39,138 nt of DNA from Arthrobacter sp. Br18 (GTDB lineage Bacteria > Actinomycetota > Actinomycetes > Actinomycetales > Micrococcaceae), in assembly GCF_000520555.1 (NCBI RefSeq), contig NZ_KI914863.1:41188-80325 (forward strand), given 5' to 3'. Under the pieces are notes generated by a model. It saw nothing but the letters and a program-made list of their open reading frames with translations. It was not told where the DNA came from and searched no databases. Made by a program: the position numbers and the translations under genes. How positions within the stretch are numbered: the stretch's first letter is position 1; each line of letters opens with the position of its first letter. Of this stretch, positions 879 to 27,120 are shown one piece after another.

Positions 879-2165
879 CTAGGAAATGCGGTCGAGAATG
901 AGCCGGCGCGCCGGGCGGGAACCCTCGGGCGCGATGGTGACCGCTCCGGCCAGCGCGTCGCGCGCTCGGTCGAACCTCTCAGGAGTATCGGTGAGCAGGG
1001 TCATCAGCGGCTCGCCCGCGCGCACCACGGCTCCGGGCTTGGCATGCAGCCGGACCCCGGCGCCCGCCTGCACCACGTCCTCCTTGCGGGCGCGGCCCGC
1101 TCCGAGGCGCCATGCTGCCACTCCGACGGCGAGCGCGTCGAGTTCCACCAGCACGCCGTCGGCCGGGGCGAGAATCACCTCGGATTCGCGGGCGACGGGA
1201 AGCGCGGCACGTGGATCCCCGCCCTGCGCCTCGATCATGCGGTTCCAGAGGTCCATGGCCCTGCCGTCCTTCAGCGCCGCAGCGGGGTCCGCGTCGGTCA
1301 CGCCTGCGCAGGCGAGCATCTCCTCCGCCAGGCGGACGGTGAGTTCGACGACGTCGGACGGTCCGCCGCCGGCGAGCACCTCCACGGATTCCTCGACCTC
1401 GATGGCGTTGCCGGCGGTGAGGCCGAGCGGCGTCGCCATGTCGGTCAGCAGGGCGACCGTGGTGACTCCGGCGTCCCTGCCGAGCGCCACCATGGTGCGC
1501 GCGAGCTCCCGCGCCTGCTCCACGTCCTTCATGAACGCACCGCTGCCCACCTTGACGTCGAGGACCAGGGATCCGGTTCCCTCGGCGATCTTCTTGCTCA
1601 TGATGGAGGAGGCGATGAGGGGGATGGCTTCGACGGTTCCGGTGACGTCACGCAGCGCGTACAGCTTCTTGTCGGCGGGCGCCAGGCCGGTTCCTGCGGC
1701 GCAGATCACCGCTCCCACGTCGGCGAGCTGGCGCATCATGTCCTCGTTGCTGAGGTGCGCACGCCAACCCGGGATGGCTTCCAGCTTGTCCAGCGTTCCG
1801 CCGGTGTGGCCGAGGCCGCGGCCGGACAGCTGGGGAACGGCGACACCGAACACCGCCACCAGCGGGGCGAGCGGCAGCGTGATCTTGTCCCCCACGCCCC
1901 CGGTGGAGTGCTTGTCACTGGTGGGCTTGCCGAGGCCGGAGAAGTTCAGCCGCTCCCCCGAAGCGATCATGGCCGCCGTCCACCGGGAGATCTCGGCGCG
2001 GTCCATGCCGTTGAGGAGGATCGCCATGTTCAGCGCGGCCATCTGCTCGTCGGCGATGGCGCCGCGGGTGTAGGCGTCGATGGTCCAGTCGATCTGTTCA
2101 GGGCTGAGGGTGCCCCTGTCGCGTTTGATGCGGATGATGTCGACGGCGTCGAATGCTTCAGTCAT
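879..2165 (-). CDS. deoA: Thymidine / pyrimidine-nucleoside phosphorylase
   Basis: This 428-residue protein is full length for the family. It should cleave thymidine or deoxyuridine (and uridine, if of the broader Pdp type) with phosphate, giving the base and (deoxy)ribose-1-phosphate in the cytoplasm. The phosphate-binding KHSTGGVGDK lies at about residues 85-94 and the family signature SGRGLGHTGGTLDKLE at 114-129. The C-terminal third fits the anticodon-like PYNP domain. The ATG start lies 35 bp downstream of cdd, so it is the last gene of the leftward nucleoside operon. Its final 44 codons are repeated at 351-485. Whether it prefers thymidine or acts on all pyrimidine nucleosides cannot be read from the motifs. 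Confidence 0.95.
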   Translation of the reverse strand: MTEAFDAVDIIRIKRDRGTLSPEQIDWTIDAYTRGAIADEQMAALNMAILLNGMDRAEISRWTAAMIASGERLNFSGLGKPTSDKHSTGGVGDKITLPLAPLVAVFGVAVPQLSGRGLGHTGGTLDKLEAIPGWRAHLSNEDMMRQLADVGAVICAAGTGLAPADKKLYALRDVTGTVEAIPLIASSIMSKKIAEGTGSLVLDVKVGSGAFMKDVEQARELARTMVALGRDAGVTTVALLTDMATPLGLTAGNAIEVEESVEVLAGGGPSDVVELTVRLAEEMLACAGVTDADPAAALKDGRAMDLWNRMIEAQGGDPRAALPVARESEVILAPADGVLVELDALAVGVAAWRLGAGRARKEDVVQAGAGVRLHAKPGAVVRAGEPLMTLLTDTPERFDRARDALAGAVTIAPEGSRPARRLILDRIS

Positions 2166-2200
2166 GGGAAGTACCTATTCTGGAGGAAGGAGTGGAGGTT

Positions 2201-2596
2201 TCAGGCGAGGTGCTGCGGGCCGAAGGCATCCGGCAGCACCTCGTCGATCGTTCGGATGCCGCTCACGGTCATCAGGACCATTCCGGGCGCCCGGAACTCG
2301 TAGAGCAGCTGGCGGCAGCGCCCGCAGGGCATGAGCGTGTTGCCCGCACCGTCCACGCAGCTGAAGGCCTCGATCCGGCCGCCTCCGGTCATCGCGAGGC
2401 TGCTGACAAGCGCACATTCGGCGCAGAGCGTGAGCCCGTAGGACGCGTTCTCCACGTTGCAGCCCGAGATGATGCGCCCGTCGTCGATCAGCGCGGCGGC
2501 TCCGACCGGGTAGTTGGAGTAGGGCACGTAGGCCCTCCCCATGGCGGCAGTGGCCGCCGCTGTGAGTTCTTCCCAGGGGATTCCGGTGTCCGGCAT
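2201..2596 (-). CDS. cdd: Cytidine deaminase
   Basis: This 131-residue homotetrameric-type cytidine deaminase converts cytidine and deoxycytidine to uridine and deoxyuridine. Zinc ligands are visible at Cys58, Cys91 and Cys94, in CAE (58-60, with catalytic Glu60) and PCGRC (90-94). The substrate-binding segment GCNVENASYGLTLCAE is standard. The ATG is 8 bp after the stop of the upstream permease gene, which supports one transcript with the importer. Its product feeds DeoA just downstream, so the operon takes cytidine from import through deamination to phosphorolysis. Confidence 0.96.
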   Translation of the reverse strand: MPDTGIPWEELTAAATAAMGRAYVPYSNYPVGAAALIDDGRIISGCNVENASYGLTLCAECALVSSLAMTGGGRIEAFSCVDGAGNTLMPCGRCRQLLYEFRAPGMVLMTVSGIRTIDEVLPDAFGPQHLA

Positions 2597-2604
2597 GATG
2601 CGTC

Positions 2605-3894
2605 CTAGCCCTTGACGTAGGGGATGCCGCTGGCCGCCGGAGCCCGCGAGCGTCCGACGAGGCCGGCGACGGCGAAGATGGTGACCACGTACGGCAGCAT
2701 GCGAAGGAACTGGTCCGGCACGGGTGTGCCCAGCAGGCTGAGCACGTTGGAGAGGTTCGTGGCGAATCCGAAGAGAAGCGCCGCGAAGAACGCGCCGATC
2801 GGGTTCCAGCGTCCGAAGATGAGCGCCGCGAGGGCGATGTAGCCCTGTCCTGCCGTCATGTCCCGCCCGAAGCCGGAGACCAGCACGAGCGTGAAGAAGG
2901 AACCGCCGACACCGGCCACGACGCCGGCGAGCAGCACGTTGGTGAAACGCATGCGGTTCACGTTGACGCCGAGGGTGTCGGCGGCCTTGGGGTGCTCACC
3001 CACCGCTCGGGTACGCAGGCCCCACCGCGAGTGGTAGAGAGCGACATACACCACCGCCACCGCCAGGTACATGAGGTAACCCACGATGGTCTGCTCGAAC
3101 AGGATGGGACCGAGGATGGGGATCTCCGAGAGGCCCGGGATGCTGAGGACGGGCAGCTGGGGCGGACTGTTCCACGTTTCGGAGTCCTCGCTGAGTACCG
3201 CGGAGAACAGGAAACCGGTGAGCCCGGACACCAGGACGTTGAGGACGACGCCCACGATCACCTGGTTCACGAGGTAGCGGATACTGAAGACCGCCAGGAC
3301 GAGGGAGACCATCACGCCTGCCACCGCGGCGGCGAGAAGGCCGACGATTGCGCTGCCGGACAGCGACGCAGCGACGGCCGCAGCGAAAGCACCGAACAGC
3401 AGTTGCCCCTCGATGGCGATGTTCACGACGCCTGAACGCTCGCACAGGACGCCCGAGAGGGAACCGAAGATCAGCGGCACCGCAAGGGTGACCGACCCGG
3501 CCAGCAGTCCGTACAGTGCCACGTTGGGCGTCCGTGCACTGCCGACCACCCAGGTGAGGAAACCGATCAGGAAGAGGACGGCGAAGGCCGCGAGGAGCCA
3601 GCGCGGAGCAGGCTCGCCACGGCGCGTCCGGGCGACGACGAAAGCTGCGAGCGCCAGCATGCCCAGTGCCGTGATCCAGCCGATCAGCGGTGCGGACAGG
3701 ACGAGTTCGGGCAGCGCCAGGGCGTCCCCGGGATCCGACAGGCGGAACGTGACGTCGTTAGCGGGCGCTCCGAGGGCGAACACGAGCAGCGCAAGCAATG
3801 CGAGCACCGACAGGAGGATGGGGTTCTTCCAGTTGCGGACGCCTCCGGAAGGGGCGTCCGCGCGGACGGGCGCTGCTGTGGCGGATGTACTCAT
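2605..3894 (-). CDS. Nucleoside ABC transporter permease (second)
   Basis: This 429-residue inner-membrane permease belongs to the BMP-linked nucleoside importer group (NupQ/YufQ-like, related to the RbsC/LivH fold). After a short hydrophilic N-terminus (MSTSATAAPVR) there are many hydrophobic segments, and the region around SLSGVLCERSGVVNIAIEGQ is the conserved cytoplasmic-loop motif of this group. The frame is open further upstream, but the ATG at 3894 is preferred: it has a GGAGG site six bases upstream and overlaps the stop of the preceding permease by four bases (ATGA), typical of coupled translation. It should pair with the permease at 3891-5126 to form the channel. Confidence 0.9.
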   Translation of the reverse strand: MSTSATAAPVRADAPSGGVRNWKNPILLSVLALLALLVFALGAPANDVTFRLSDPGDALALPELVLSAPLIGWITALGMLALAAFVVARTRRGEPAPRWLLAAFAVLFLIGFLTWVVGSARTPNVALYGLLAGSVTLAVPLIFGSLSGVLCERSGVVNIAIEGQLLFGAFAAAVAASLSGSAIVGLLAAAVAGVMVSLVLAVFSIRYLVNQVIVGVVLNVLVSGLTGFLFSAVLSEDSETWNSPPQLPVLSIPGLSEIPILGPILFEQTIVGYLMYLAVAVVYVALYHSRWGLRTRAVGEHPKAADTLGVNVNRMRFTNVLLAGVVAGVGGSFFTLVLVSGFGRDMTAGQGYIALAALIFGRWNPIGAFFAALLFGFATNLSNVLSLLGTPVPDQFLRMLPYVVTIFAVAGLVGRSRAPAASGIPYVKG

Positions 3895-22500: not shown

Positions 22501-23385
22501 CTAGCCCCGCTCGGCGGCCTCCACCACGTTGGCCAGGAGCATGGCCCTGGTCATCGGGCCCACTCCGCCGGGATTCGGCGACAGCCAGGAGGCTACTTCC
22601 CCGGCAGCGGGCTCGACATCGCCGGTCAGTGCGGCCTTGCCCGTCCGGGCATCGACCACGCGGCTGACGCCGACGTCGAGCACGATGGCGCCAGGTTTCA
22701 GCTGACCGGCCTTGATCATGTGCGGGATGCCTGCAGCCGCAACGACGACGTCGGCCCGTCCCAGGTGGTCGGCGAGGTCCACCGTCCCGGTGTGTGCGAG
22801 TGTCACCGTCGCGTTGATGGCTTTCCTCGTGAGCAGCAGGCCGAGTGGCCGCCCCACCGTCACTCCCCTGCCCACCACGAGGACGTTCAGCCCCTTGAGC
22901 GCCACGTCGTGGCGCTGCAGCAGTTCGATGATCCCGTGCGGGGTGCAGGGCAGCGGCGAATCCATCGGCGCATTGACGTTGAGCACCAGCTTGCCGAGAT
23001 TGGTGGGATGGAGACCGTCGGCGTCCTTCGCGGGGTCCATCCGTGCGAGGACGGCGTTGGTGTCGAGGTGCGCGGGAAGAGGAAGCTGCACGATGTAGCC
23101 GGTGGTGGCGGGGTCGGCGTTCAGCTCATCGATGAGCGCTTCCAGCTCTTCCTGGGAGATGGTGGCGGGAACATCGCGGCGCACCGAGGTGATTCCCACC
23201 TGGGCGCAGTCGCGGTGCTTGCCTGCCACATAGGAGTGGCTGCCGGGGTCGTCCCCCACGAGGACGGTCCCGAGGCCCGGGGTGATGCCCCGGGCCTTCA
23301 GTGCGCTGACCCTCTCCGTGAGCTCCTCCCGGATCCGGGCCGCTGTGGCCTTGCCGTCAAGAATGCGGGCGGTGGTGGTGCTCAT
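22501..23385 (-). CDS. folD: Bifunctional methylene-THF dehydrogenase / methenyl-THF cyclohydrolase
   Basis: This 294-residue enzyme interconverts 5,10-methylene-THF and 10-formyl-THF with NADP+. The active-site YVAGKHRDC holds the Tyr and Lys expected for FolD. QLPLPAHL and the dinucleotide-binding [11 protein letters not shown] are present, and [14 protein letters not shown] is the second signature. The ATG at 23385 follows GGAGACC and overlaps the stop of the small ORF upstream by four bases (ATGA). It is cotranscribed with glyA, which produces its methylene-THF substrate. Confidence 0.96.
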
Positions 23386-23564
23386 GGTTGGTCTCCGGTT
23401 TCCAGTCGTTCGTTCTCCAGCTGTTCGTTCTCCAGCTGTTCGAGCAGGAAGGCCTTCCCTCGCTCGCAGCAGCCGGTGAAGCAACACTCCGTTGCGGGGA
23501 TCCCGTACTCGGACGACGCCGCTGCCCGCGAGGCCAGCGCACCTTCCGGGAGGGCCTCTACCAT
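23382..23564 (-). CDS. 60-residue cysteine-rich small protein between glyA and folD
   Basis: This frame starts with an ATG that overlaps the last codons of glyA (the bases ATGGTAG hold both the start and the glyA stop). It ends in an ATGA overlap with the folD start, so it fills the gap exactly. AGGAGG lies one base upstream of the ATG, too close for best initiation but suited to re-initiation after glyA. The protein has a small N-terminal part, then [11 protein letters not shown] with Cys27, 28, 32 and 33, and a Leu/Glu-rich helix containing the repeat [10 protein letters not shown]. CCxxxCC suggests metal or cluster binding, but no family is recognised. Conservation in relatives would decide whether it is real. 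Confidence 0.6.
23408..23442. repeat. 15-bp tandem repeat, about 2.3 copies
   Basis: The unit CGTTCTCCAGCTGTT occurs at 23411-23425 and 23426-23440, with partial matches on both sides and a degenerate copy further left. The period is a multiple of three, so in the small ORF it encodes LENEQ then LENER without breaking the frame. Confidence 0.9.
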
Positions 23565-24871
23565 TCCTCCTGGCCCGGATACAGCGGAAAGTCAGCCGTG
23601 AGGACTGAAACCCTTGCGCGCAGCGCGTCGACGTCGGCCGCGGGTTTCAGGGCGGCGGCGATGATGTCGCCGACCTCCGTGAATTCAGGCGCTCCGAAGC
23701 CGCGGGTTGCGAGCGCCGGCGTCCCGATGCGCAGTCCCGAGGTGACCATGGGCGGGCGCGGATCGAACGGCACCGCGTTTCGGTTGACGGTGATGCCGAC
23801 CGAGTGCAGGAGGTCCTCCCCCTGCTGTCCGTCGAGAACCGAGTTCCGCAGGTCGACGAGAACGAGGTGGACATCGGTGCCGCCGGTCAGCACGGAGATC
23901 CCGTGGTCCGCGACGTCGGCGGAGGTGAGGCGCTCGGCGATGATCCGTGCACCCTCCAGCACCCGCTCCTGGCGCTCCCTGAATTCCGGGGAACCTGCGA
24001 TCCGGAAGGCGGTGGCCTTGCCCGCGATCACGTGCATGAGGGGGCCGCCCTGCTGGCCGGGGAACACGTTCGAGTTGATCTTCCGAGCCCACTCCTGCTT
24101 GGCCAGGATGACGCCGGAGCGCGGGCCGGCGAGCGTCTTGTGGACCGTGGAGGTGACGACGTCGGAGTAGGGCACGGGACTGGGGTGCACTCCGGCGGCA
24201 ACGAGGCCTGCGAAATGGGCCATGTCGGTCCAGAGGAGCGCGCCCACCTCGTCGGCGATGGACCGGAAGGCGGCGAAGTCCAGTTGGCGCGGGTAGGCGG
24301 ACCAGCCGGCGATGAGGACCTGGGGTTTCTCGGCCAGTGCCTGCGCGCGGACGCGCTCCATGTCGAGCCGATGGGTGTCCTCCTCGACACCGTAGGCCGC
24401 CACCTTGTAGAGCTTGCCGGAGAAGTTCAGCTTCATGCCGTGCGTCAGGTGGCCGCCGTGGGCCAGTGAGAGGCCCATGATCTTGTCGCCGGGCTGAATC
24501 ATCGCGGACAGCGCTGCGGCGTTGGCCTGTGCGCCGGAGTGCGGCTGGACGTTGGCGAACTCGGCACCGAAGAGGGTTTTCACACGTTCGATGGCAAGGT
24601 TCTCCGCCACGTCGACGTGCTCGCACCCGCCGTAGTAGCGGCGCCCGGGATAGCCCTCCGCGTACTTGTTCGTGAGGACCGAGCCCTGGGCTTCGAGGAC
24701 TGCGCGGGGCGCGAAATTCTCGGAGGCGATCATTTCGAGGGTGTCGCGCTGCCGGGCCAGTTCATCGCGGAGCACTGCCGCGATTTCGGGATCCACCTCG
24801 GACAGCGGCGCGTTGGTCACGGAATCGGCGCCGTGGGAAAGCGCGGGCGTCGATGACGGCGAAGTGGTCAC
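23558..24871 (-). CDS. glyA: Serine hydroxymethyltransferase
   Basis: This 437-residue PLP enzyme converts serine and THF to glycine and methylene-THF in the cytoplasm. The PLP lysine is Lys245 in [13 protein letters not shown]. Family regions include [24 protein letters not shown] and PHSGAQAN. The frame continues upstream to 24949, but the GTG at 24871 follows an AAGGA site at seven bases and removes an unrelated Arg/Pro-rich extension, so it is chosen. It heads a leftward operon glyA - small ORF - folD, and diverges from the flavin monooxygenase-like gene. Confidence 0.95.
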
Positions 24872-25154
24872 GGAGGAATCCTTCTGTGGGAGTCGCGGGG
24901 GTCGGTGAGCCGTCCGCAGCGCCGGAGCCCTTCCGGTGTGGTTGCCCACCCCAGCCCGGTTCCGGCGCCTTTCATGCTAGTCGCAGGGCAACCCGTGCCG
25001 CCACCGCGAGCCCCGCCGGAACGGGCGAGCCGGACCGGCACGGATGGAATACGGCAGTGGCCGGAGCGGTTTCACCGGGAGTGGCCGAACACCGGCCAGT
25101 GCCTCCCGGCCTTCCCCGCGGCACTTCAGGACGTCAGGGAACGGACGTCTCACG
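24872..25154. promoter_or_regulatory. Divergent intergenic region with structured glyA leader
   Basis: On the minus strand, a TAGCAT hexamer near 24973-24978 could be the -10 of a glyA promoter, giving a leader of roughly 95 nt. An 8-bp inverted repeat in that leader (GCGCCGGA pairing with TCCGGCGC, near 24920-24967) could fold into a hairpin. I see no conserved riboswitch core (see rejected items). No convincing promoter for the rightward gene is visible. Confidence 0.3.
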
Positions 25155-26242
25155 GTGGCAGAACAGCAGGGGGCAGGGGTCGTCGTGATCGGTGCGGGCC
25201 AGGCAGGCCTGAGCAGCGCCTATCATCTGCTCCGGAAGGGCCTGGCGCCTGGAAAAGACTTCCTCGTGCTGGACGCGAATGAGGGCCCGGGAGGTGCCTG
25301 GCGGCACCGCTGGCCCTCCCTCACCTTCGATGCCGCCCATGCCCTGCATGATCTGCCGGGCATGCCGCTCGGGACGCCGGACCCGCACGAACCCGCGTCA
25401 GGCGTGGTAAGCCGCTACTACGCTGGCTTCGAGGAGCGCTTCGGCGTTCCGGTCCTTCGGCCCTCGCAGGCCTCGGGCGTGCGCCGGGTGGCCGACGGAC
25501 TGGAGGTAGACCTTCGGGACGGCCGGTCCTGGCGGGCGGAAGCGGTCATCAATGCGACCGGCACGTGGACCCGTCCCTACTGGCCCTCCTACCCGGGACG
25601 GGAGGAGTTCGCCGGAGCGCAGCTGCACACGGCCGATTTCCTCACTGCCCGGGCCTTCTCGTGGTGGGCGGTGGAACCTCCGCGGTCCAGTTCCTCCTCC
25701 AGCTGGCCGCTGCGGGCGCGGACACCCTCTGGTCCACCAGGACCCCGCCGCGCTTCACCCGGCGTGCCTTCGACCCCGAATGGGGCCGGGATGTCGAGGC
25801 GGAAGTGGACGCCCGCACCCGGGCCGGCCTTCCGCCGTCGAGCGTGGTCTCCGTCACCGGGCTGCCGCTGACACCGGCCTACCAGTCAGGGATCGACGCC
25901 GGTATCCTCGCCTCGCGCGGACCCCTGGAGCGCCTCACCGAGCGGGGCGTCGTCTTCGGGGACGGCAGCGCCGGGGAGGTCGACGTCGTGCTGTGGGCCA
26001 CCGGCTTCCGTCCCGAACTCGACCACCTTGCTCCGCTCCGCCTGAGGGAACCCGGCGGCGGCATCCGGATGGACGGGGTTCGGGTCCTCCGCGAGCCGCG
26101 CCTGTTCCTGGTGGGGTACGGCGCCTCGGCGTCAACCCTCGGGGCAACGCGTGCGGGACGCGCGGCGGCGCTCGCTGCGGTGGCGGTCCTGGATCCACCG
26201 GGCTCGGAGCGGCCGGTCGGCGCAGGTAGCCTTGCGCTGTGA
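25155..26242 (+). pseudogene. Flavin-containing monooxygenase-like gene with an internal frameshift
   Basis: The N-terminal half (from GTG 25155) shows the FAD fold GAGQAG at residues 13-18, then ANEGPGGAWRHRWPSLTFD, typical of CzcO/FMO-like enzymes, and INATGTWTRPYWP. After LHTADFLTAR (near 25650) that frame turns to nonsense. The second half continues in another frame from GLLVVGGGTSAVQFLLQLAA (the NADPH fold) to ATGFRPEL and the C-terminus, stopping at 26242. The shift equals one lost base (modulo three) between about 25640 and 25660. It is either a disrupted gene or a sequencing error; both halves otherwise look intact. The stop overlaps the purU start (GTGA). Confidence 0.85.
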
Positions 26243-27120
26243 CCTCTCCGCTGACAGCTCCGGCACCTTCCGCTGAAATCCGCTCGTACTCGCTCAGCCT
26301 TTCGTGCCCCGACCGGCCCGGGATCGTCCACGGAGTCTCGGGCGCCCTCGTGGCGGCCGGCGCCAACATCACCGAATCACAGCAGTACGGGAGCCCCGAC
26401 ACCGGCACCTTCTTCATGCGGGTGGCCCTTGCGACGGACGCCGGCGAAGCCGGAGTGCGCGGCCATCTTGCGGCCGTGGCGGCGAAGTTCGGGATGGAGT
26501 TCTCGCTTGCCCCCGAGGGTGCACGCACCCGGACGATGATTCTGGTGTCCAAGGCGGACCACTGCCTCAACGATCTCCTCTTCCAGCACAGGTCGGGTAT
26601 CCTGCCGATCAACATCCCCGTCATCGTGTCCAACCATCCGGACCTCGCCGGACTCGCCGCCTTCCACGGGATCGAGTTCCACCACATCCCGGTGACCTCG
26701 TCGACCAAGGACACTGCCGAGGCGGCCCTGAGGGCCCTCATGGCGAAGCATGACATCGAGCTGGTGGTGCTCGCGCGGTACATGCAGATCCTCAGCGACG
26801 AGCTGTGCGCTGACCTCCGGGGACGGGCCATCAACATCCACCACTCGTTCCTTCCCTCCTTCAAGGGCGCCCGCCCGTATCATCAGGCCCACACCCGGGG
26901 CGTGAAGCTGATCGGCGCCACTGCCCACTACGTCACCGGAGCCCTCGATGAGGGGCCCATCATCGAGCAGGAAGTCATCCGGGTGGACCACGGCCGCACC
27001 GCCGGGCAGTTGGCCACGATCGGGCGGCAGCTCGAAGGCCGGGCGCTGGTGCAGGCCGTCCAGTGGCACGCCGAGCACCGTGTGCTCCTCGACGGCACCA
27101 GGACCATCGTCTTCGGCTGA
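26239..27120 (+). CDS. purU: Formyltetrahydrofolate deformylase
   Basis: This 293-residue enzyme hydrolyses 10-formyl-THF to formate and THF, balancing one-carbon pools. An N-terminal ACT domain (about 17-95; SCPDRPGIVHGVSGAL) precedes a formyltransferase-like catalytic domain. That domain has INIHHSFLPSFKGARPYHQ and GATAHYVTGALDEGPIIEQ, holding the catalytic His and Asp. The GTG start overlaps the preceding stop by four bases. Position next to glyA and folD fits a one-carbon cluster, though it is on the opposite strand. Confidence 0.96.
   Translation: MTSPLTAPAPSAEIRSYSLSLSCPDRPGIVHGVSGALVAAGANITESQQYGSPDTGTFFMRVALATDAGEAGVRGHLAAVAAKFGMEFSLAPEGARTRTMILVSKADHCLNDLLFQHRSGILPINIPVIVSNHPDLAGLAAFHGIEFHHIPVTSSTKDTAEAALRALMAKHDIELVVLARYMQILSDELCADLRGRAINIHHSFLPSFKGARPYHQAHTRGVKLIGATAHYVTGALDEGPIIEQEVIRVDHGRTAGQLATIGRQLEGRALVQAVQWHAEHRVLLDGTRTIVFG

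Follow-up and report, generated by a model that had tools for sequence, protein, structure and literature searches.

The junction between glyA and folD in Arthrobacter sp. Br18 contains a genuine small gene, which, judged by sequence comparison, lies far beyond chance. The core of its cysteine-rich product is under extreme purifying selection, tighter than in the stretches of GlyA and FolD that were measured. The product is read here, at roughly even chances, as a small soluble tetracysteine protein of metal or thiol chemistry, which would have been acquired into the glyA-folD operon and would not belong specifically to either enzyme. The evidence comes from the window, i.e., the whole stretch of 39,138 nucleotides that was analyzed, and from comparison with related genomes.

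Structure of the glyA-folD junction

The small ORF is located on the minus strand, with glyA upstream and folD downstream. The features of the junction are the following:

23382..23564, minus strand: small CCxxxCC ORF of 60 aa, ATG start, TGA stop
23451..23489, minus strand: core of the ORF, residues 26-38, in which only residue 34 varies (E/D) among 30 aligned rows
23481..23486, minus strand: codons of Cys27 and Cys28, invariant in 30 rows
23466..23471, minus strand: codons of Cys32 and Cys33, invariant in 30 rows
23558..23564, minus strand: overlap of the ORF start with the glyA end, ATGGTAG, 7 bases, containing the Trp codon TGG and the stop TAG
23382..23385, minus strand: overlap of the ORF stop TGA with the folD ATG, ATGA, 4 bases, a geometry found in 8 of 30 genus loci
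23393..23396, minus strand: Shine-Dalgarno-like GGAG, 7 nt upstream of the folD ATG, within the end of the ORF
23408..23442, minus strand: 15-bp tandem repeat, 2.3 copies, codons 41-53, extending into the variable tail
23558..24949, minus strand: glyA, serine hydroxymethyltransferase (NF000586.1, 582.7 bits, above the cut-off), given as the longest ORF with a putative start
22501..23385, minus strand: folD, methylenetetrahydrofolate dehydrogenase/cyclohydrolase (NF010789.1, 463.7 bits, above the cut-off)

The window sequence bears out the predicted 60-residue frame between glyA and folD, with cysteines at positions 27, 28, 32 and 33, and the four Cys thiolates sit within seven residues. The genome contains one strong copy of the ORF and one weak match (E 0.797). 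The surroundings are a one-carbon neighborhood, as purU (formyltetrahydrofolate deformylase, 26239-27120, TIGR00655 above the cut-off) is encoded close by, on the plus strand, opposite to glyA and folD.

The ORF overlaps both of its neighbors, by 7 bases with glyA and by 4 with folD. The ATG, which had been described as sharing bases with the glyA stop, shares them with the Trp codon TGG and not with TAG; it is the second codon of the ORF that runs into the stop (A-TGG-TAG read as ATG GTA G). The double overlap had also been taken for a rare and telling signature, an argument that is weakened by the comparison of loci. Since GlyA ends with Glu or Gln followed by Trp, and A or G always stands before TGG, an ATG or GTG at this place is forced. 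Within the genus, the ORF starts with ATG at 9 and with GTG at 21 of 30 loci, and 23 of 27 loci from other genera, all without the ORF, have one of the two codons at the same place. In 12 of these 23 loci (L059, L060, L062, L064, L065, L068, L069, L072, L075, L079, L084 and L085), FolD can be read without interruption from that codon onward, and likewise in G020 and G031, two genus members devoid of the ORF. In those 12 loci folD may start at the glyA-overlapping codon, and it is plausible that the small ORF took over a start codon usable by folD.

At the folD end, the 30 genus loci show a 4-nt overlap (8 loci), abutting genes (7), an overlap of 23-29 nt (12), a 1-nt gap (1), a 170-nt overlap (L018) or an in-frame fusion (L019). 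In the last case, found in genome G005, the small ORF reads in frame and with no stop into FolD (about 1498-2547 of the oriented locus), giving a predicted fusion of 349 residues, known from one genome and from its assembly sequence.

The overlaps had further been proposed to point to coupled translation. On the glyA side such coupling is likely from the start geometry, because the glyA-overlapping ATG is the sole ATG, GTG or TTG before the core of the window ORF and a well-spaced Shine-Dalgarno site is missing: an upstream AGGAG is present at 17 of the 30 loci, always only 2 nt from the start, and absent from the other 13. Coupling to folD need not be obligate, since folD has its own Shine-Dalgarno-like site at 26 of 30 loci (5-9 nt from the start in 25 of these) and the geometry of its junction varies. 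The proposal is thus likely for glyA and unsupported as obligate coupling for folD.

Selection and distribution within Arthrobacter

A functional protein was expected to show conserved cysteines, a conserved frame and a low Ka/Ks among relatives, and all three were found within the genus. The codon analysis is based on 30 genus rows, L050 not being included. At all 30 loci, the open frame runs from one common point and without gaps up to residue 26, the E of ECCFTGCC. The pooled dN/dS of the ORF is 0.198 over codons 3-45, 0.361 over codons 3-25, 0.049 over codons 26-45, and 0.017 over codons 26-38, which encode the core ECCFTGCC[DE]RGKA. As yardsticks from the same 30 genomes, the last 100 codons of GlyA gave 0.087 and 100 codons of FolD 0.153. 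The pN/pS of the ORF frame over codons 3-45 is 0.305 (30 rows), while the two shifted same-strand frames, measured over nearly the same stretch, gave 1.75 and 1.86 and contain stops in 4 and 11 of the 30 rows, respectively. In codons 26-45, changes at the third position amount to 0.345, against 0.012-0.050 at the other positions. Further alignments differ in their rows: A1 leaves out L018, which has the same core and a frame running 170 nt into folD, adds L050, and cuts the row of L019 before FolD; A3 and A4 contain the core only, and A5 omits L101, L106, L107 and L108.

These values bear on the idea that the stretch encodes no protein and is a conserved DNA or RNA element or a frameshift extension of GlyA. 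The frame does continue without a stop into glyA, over anything from a few codons to many. Dominance of third-position changes in codons 26-45, pN/pS above 1.7 in the other same-strand frames, and the absence of any Rfam match at gathering scores make this idea scarcely credible. That all 30 loci begin the frame with ATG or GTG also speaks against it, although such a codon is expected from the GlyA Trp codon.

A cis-acting role has to be considered as well. A cysteine-rich leader ORF could sense the cysteine supply or stall, controlling folD in the manner of mycobacterial polycysteine attenuators. In the class of cysteine attenuator sORFs, as it is understood here, the Cys codons alone would be constrained and the peptide otherwise free; a 2020 study by Canestrari, to go by its title, reportedly treats cysteine-rich regulatory sORFs of mycobacteria. 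The pattern of the small ORF differs from this class, as its 18 invariant columns include, besides the four Cys, E26, F29, T30, G31, R35, G36, K37, A38 and L41, and the core dN/dS is as low as noted above. Synonymous changes are present in core Cys, Thr, Gly and Arg codons, so that many non-Cys residues are invariant while their codons vary. Given these non-Cys residues, it is the peptide and not merely the Cys codons that appears to be selected, which makes a cysteine attenuator unlikely. The leader reading draws on the consecutive Cys codons just upstream of folD and on the conserved cysteine-rich regulatory sORFs reported for mycobacteria (PMC9094748). It is further weakened by the separate Shine-Dalgarno-like site of folD, by a spacing to folD that ranges from a 1-nt gap to a 29-nt overlap and beyond, by the Rfam result, and by distant relatives that precede or follow unrelated genes. 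On balance it is judged improbable, and the small ORF may nevertheless act as an arrest peptide.

Of the 38 genus genomes, 31 have a strong match to the small ORF (E 1.8e-16 or better), the window's own among them. In all 31 carriers, the ORF directly follows glyA and fills the junction with folD. The orthologues are roughly 50-65 residues long; L050, the 31st carrier, is one residue shorter before the core, and tails differ in length, to which small duplications like the 15-bp repeat at 23408-23442 may in part have contributed. The other seven genomes keep glyA and folD; their junctions, which were read, leave about 1-81 nt between the genes and contain no frame of this kind. Among named genomes, a scan gave 23 small-ORF loci, 22 of them labelled Arthrobacter, including A. 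agilis, A. subterraneus, A. ruber, A. bussei, A. crusticola and A. cheniae. One record labelled Vibrio cholerae 35D (L101, WNZI01000031.1) encodes a small protein identical to that of the Arthrobacter-group genome G025 (L009), and is probably mislabelled or contaminated.

Outside the genus, the ORF is absent from 27 of 27 glyA-folD loci examined in 17 genera, which are the best-scoring 27 of 57 GlyA-matching genomes of other genera out of 58 searched and include no locus of g15, the second genus treated below. The small ORF is therefore a genus-level gain and not a feature of Micrococcaceae. Accordingly, the gap frame and its CC motif are kept in relatives within the genus and missing from the other genera, where the original prediction had looked to the whole family.

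A tree of GlyA and FolD was built from 48 rows: the 31 carriers, the 7 genus non-carriers, and 10 outgroup rows taken from the 27 other-genus loci. It is a quick tree with SH-aLRT support only, and its G020 row contains a partial GlyA (168 of 391 residues). The presence of the ORF requires three changes on this tree. They are most naturally read as a single gain within the genus after the split of G020, one loss in G031, and one loss in the clade of G010, G011, G018, G029 and G034. Both losses are nested within starred branches of the tree, while G020 branches at the base from an open fork. With this fork open and the GlyA of G020 partial, the history may instead comprise a gain before G020 and a third loss.

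The distribution weighs directly on a dedicated partner of the one-carbon enzymes, i.e., a small protein which would bind one of the two enzymes and adjust its activity or assembly in response to metal or thiol state. The place between the two genes in every carrier, the 7-base overlap with glyA and the in-frame 349-residue fusion with FolD in G005 are consistent with it. The start overlap, however, exists even where the small ORF does not; the single fusion among 30 loci may have arisen by a plain indel; glyA and folD are kept by the seven genus genomes devoid of the small ORF; and none of the 27 other-genus junctions contains the ORF. In addition, six relatives in another genus of the family are found away from glyA-folD, beside bioB, bioD, tdk or purA. 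The one-carbon role suggested originally thus retains the fixed position and a single FolD fusion and is weakened by these relatives and the apparent losses. A dedicated GlyA or FolD partner ranks second after the metal or thiol protein, as a possible but unproven and, on present evidence, rather unlikely role.

Distant relatives and known families

Searches of family collections returned no assignment. No Pfam family was found for five members at E up to 10, a setting at which most matches weaker than E 0.1 are already removed by the HMMER filters. NCBIfam gave 0 matches for five proteins and PHROGs 0 for two, both at E up to 10, and the best match among PDB sequences reached merely E 0.49. 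The window protein had no match in phages; in plasmids, neither it nor a protein of the second genus had one. A literature search for a small protein at glyA/folD in Arthrobacter found nothing, which does not imply its absence from print. One resemblance concerns the Oxidored-like domain PF09791, which presumably has a CCxxGC stretch ahead of an acidic segment, as does the window ORF. Identity with this domain was rejected with the Pfam search of the five members; a search of 70 phylum genomes for PF09791 gave no match, and the positive controls likewise gave none.

Distant relatives with the core [DE]DCCLGGCCxKGxAY were found in the second genus (g15) of the same family. The window protein alone recovered four of six g15 loci at E 0.006-0.044 and missed the other two at E up to 1. 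A mixed profile, two rows of which are from g15, detected six g15 genomes among 295 family genomes (E 2.4e-12 to 7.1e-14) and, in this sample, no convincing member of a further genus. When a profile from the genus of the window (g1) was compared with a g15-only profile, the probability was 95.1% and E 2.9e-8 over 23 columns; both alignments are of low diversity (Neff below 2), and these roughly 23 columns are rich in Cys and Gly. The sequence evidence for homology between g1 and g15 is good but not conclusive. The window ORF has [DE]CCxxGCCx[KR]GxA[FY] in a short stand-alone frame, by which the g1/g15 family is defined here. Both forms share the core, in most rows preceded by [FY][DE][IL], while the g15 ORF has a longer N-terminus, L-G-G in place of the F-T-G of the window, other neighbors and no visible link to glyA or folD.

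Wider searches added few candidates. In 386 order genomes, the A4 profile matched g1 and g15 (G051) alone at E up to 0.01; the 396 phylum genomes yielded just the genome of the window and one weak match antisense to a likely rtcB, judged to be chance. A g1-only profile against 396 order genomes matched three genus genomes and one sequence with an internal stop. Among the weak matches, L039 and L035/L036 were kept as real relatives. L032-L034, L037, L038 and L040-L042 were rejected, as they lack the CCxxGCC core or contain stops; L032 and L033 are flanked by other genes and one of the two contains a stop, while L042 runs antisense to a gene resembling a transporter.

In g15, the ORF precedes bioB at L138 and L139 and follows it at L141; it lies after bioD and before purA at L136, between tdk and purA at L137, and before purA at L140. 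The names bioD, tdk and purA were recognized from sequence by eye, and BioB was confirmed by profile at L035, the same place as L138. The g15 BioB of L035 (frame 1714-3084) has a Cys/Gly-rich C-terminal tail, SSGGCCGSGGCGGEGE. The bioB gene was found in the genomes of L136, L138, L139 and L141, and lies less than 1 kb from the small ORF in G080, G103 and G184.

These g15 copies beside bioB suggest a helper of biotin synthase resembling BsaP, and the ORF adjoins bioB or bioD in 4 of 6 g15 carriers. BsaP (Rv1590), the biotin synthase auxiliary protein, is a small cysteine protein that mycobacterial BioB requires; many actinobacteria have homologs next to bioB, and an atypical Fe-S cluster has been proposed for it (PMC11099021). 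The likeness to the small ORF extends to size, cysteine content and, in g15, the neighboring bioB. The cysteine pattern, however, is another one: the tuberculosis protein has three conserved Cys (44, 47 and 64), whereas the window ORF has CCxxxCC and no CxxC-x16-C spacing. BsaP also needs BioB, and TIGR00433 (BioB) matched nothing in the 98% complete genome of the window, so that a BioB to serve is apparently lacking. A bioB above the cut-off is present in 2 of 38 genus genomes, G013 with the ORF and G020 without it; four further genomes have only partial matches below the cut-off. In g15, two of six carriers are without bioB and three of four checked non-carriers have it, though further g15 non-carriers may exist. 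With bioB above the cut-off missing from 36 of 38 genomes, the link is rejected for the genus; it is unsupported in g15, and a biotin helper is very improbable as an account of the family.

The nearest known thing in style, by analogy, would be TrpM, the product of a small ORF of Streptomyces coelicolor, which binds PepA and affects tryptophan metabolism (PMC7042404). Its Cys 19 and 24 are suggested by the authors, as a proposal, to form a dimeric 2Fe-2S site (PMC7042404). Both are small actinobacterial proteins tied to amino-acid metabolism, and the two TrpM cysteines are spaced by five positions, like the pairs 27/32 and 28/33 of the window ORF. For TrpM, only two Cys are discussed in the paper, against the four of the window ORF.

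Proposed function and significance

Taken as a small metal or thiol protein, the product would be translated by re-initiation as ribosomes finish glyA, if the coupling suggested by the start geometry holds. The CCxxxCC cluster, together with the short segment that follows, would form a compact four-thiolate site. Judged by the motif, this site would most likely bind a metal ion or a small metal cluster, or buffer thiols; Zn, Cu, Fe-S and thiol chemistry appear equally compatible with it. One Arthrobacter lineage probably acquired the gene a single time, between glyA and folD, and the operon would serve as its expression site; the distant g15 relatives lie beside other housekeeping genes. The constant position after glyA in the 31 carriers counts against this reading, and the G005 fusion would fit a FolD-linked role as well.

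A further-reaching proposal combines both lines and is held to be quite unlikely. It describes an undescribed tiny tetracysteine family of two genera, which would move between glyA-folD, tdk-purA and biotin operons and, in response to metal or redox state, act on whichever enzyme is made alongside it. In Arthrobacter, it would tune FolD and consequently the supply of formyl-folate, the CC-FolD of G005 being its natural covalent form.

The family is in none of Pfam, NCBIfam, PHROGs or the PDB sequences, and small Cys-rich operon proteins are already known as a kind. Proteins of this size tend to escape notice when their genes lie within housekeeping operons. A lineage-specific four-cysteine protein fixed in a universal one-carbon operon provides a test case for how small regulators or metal handlers are recruited, and the sister species naturally devoid of the ORF are its built-in controls.
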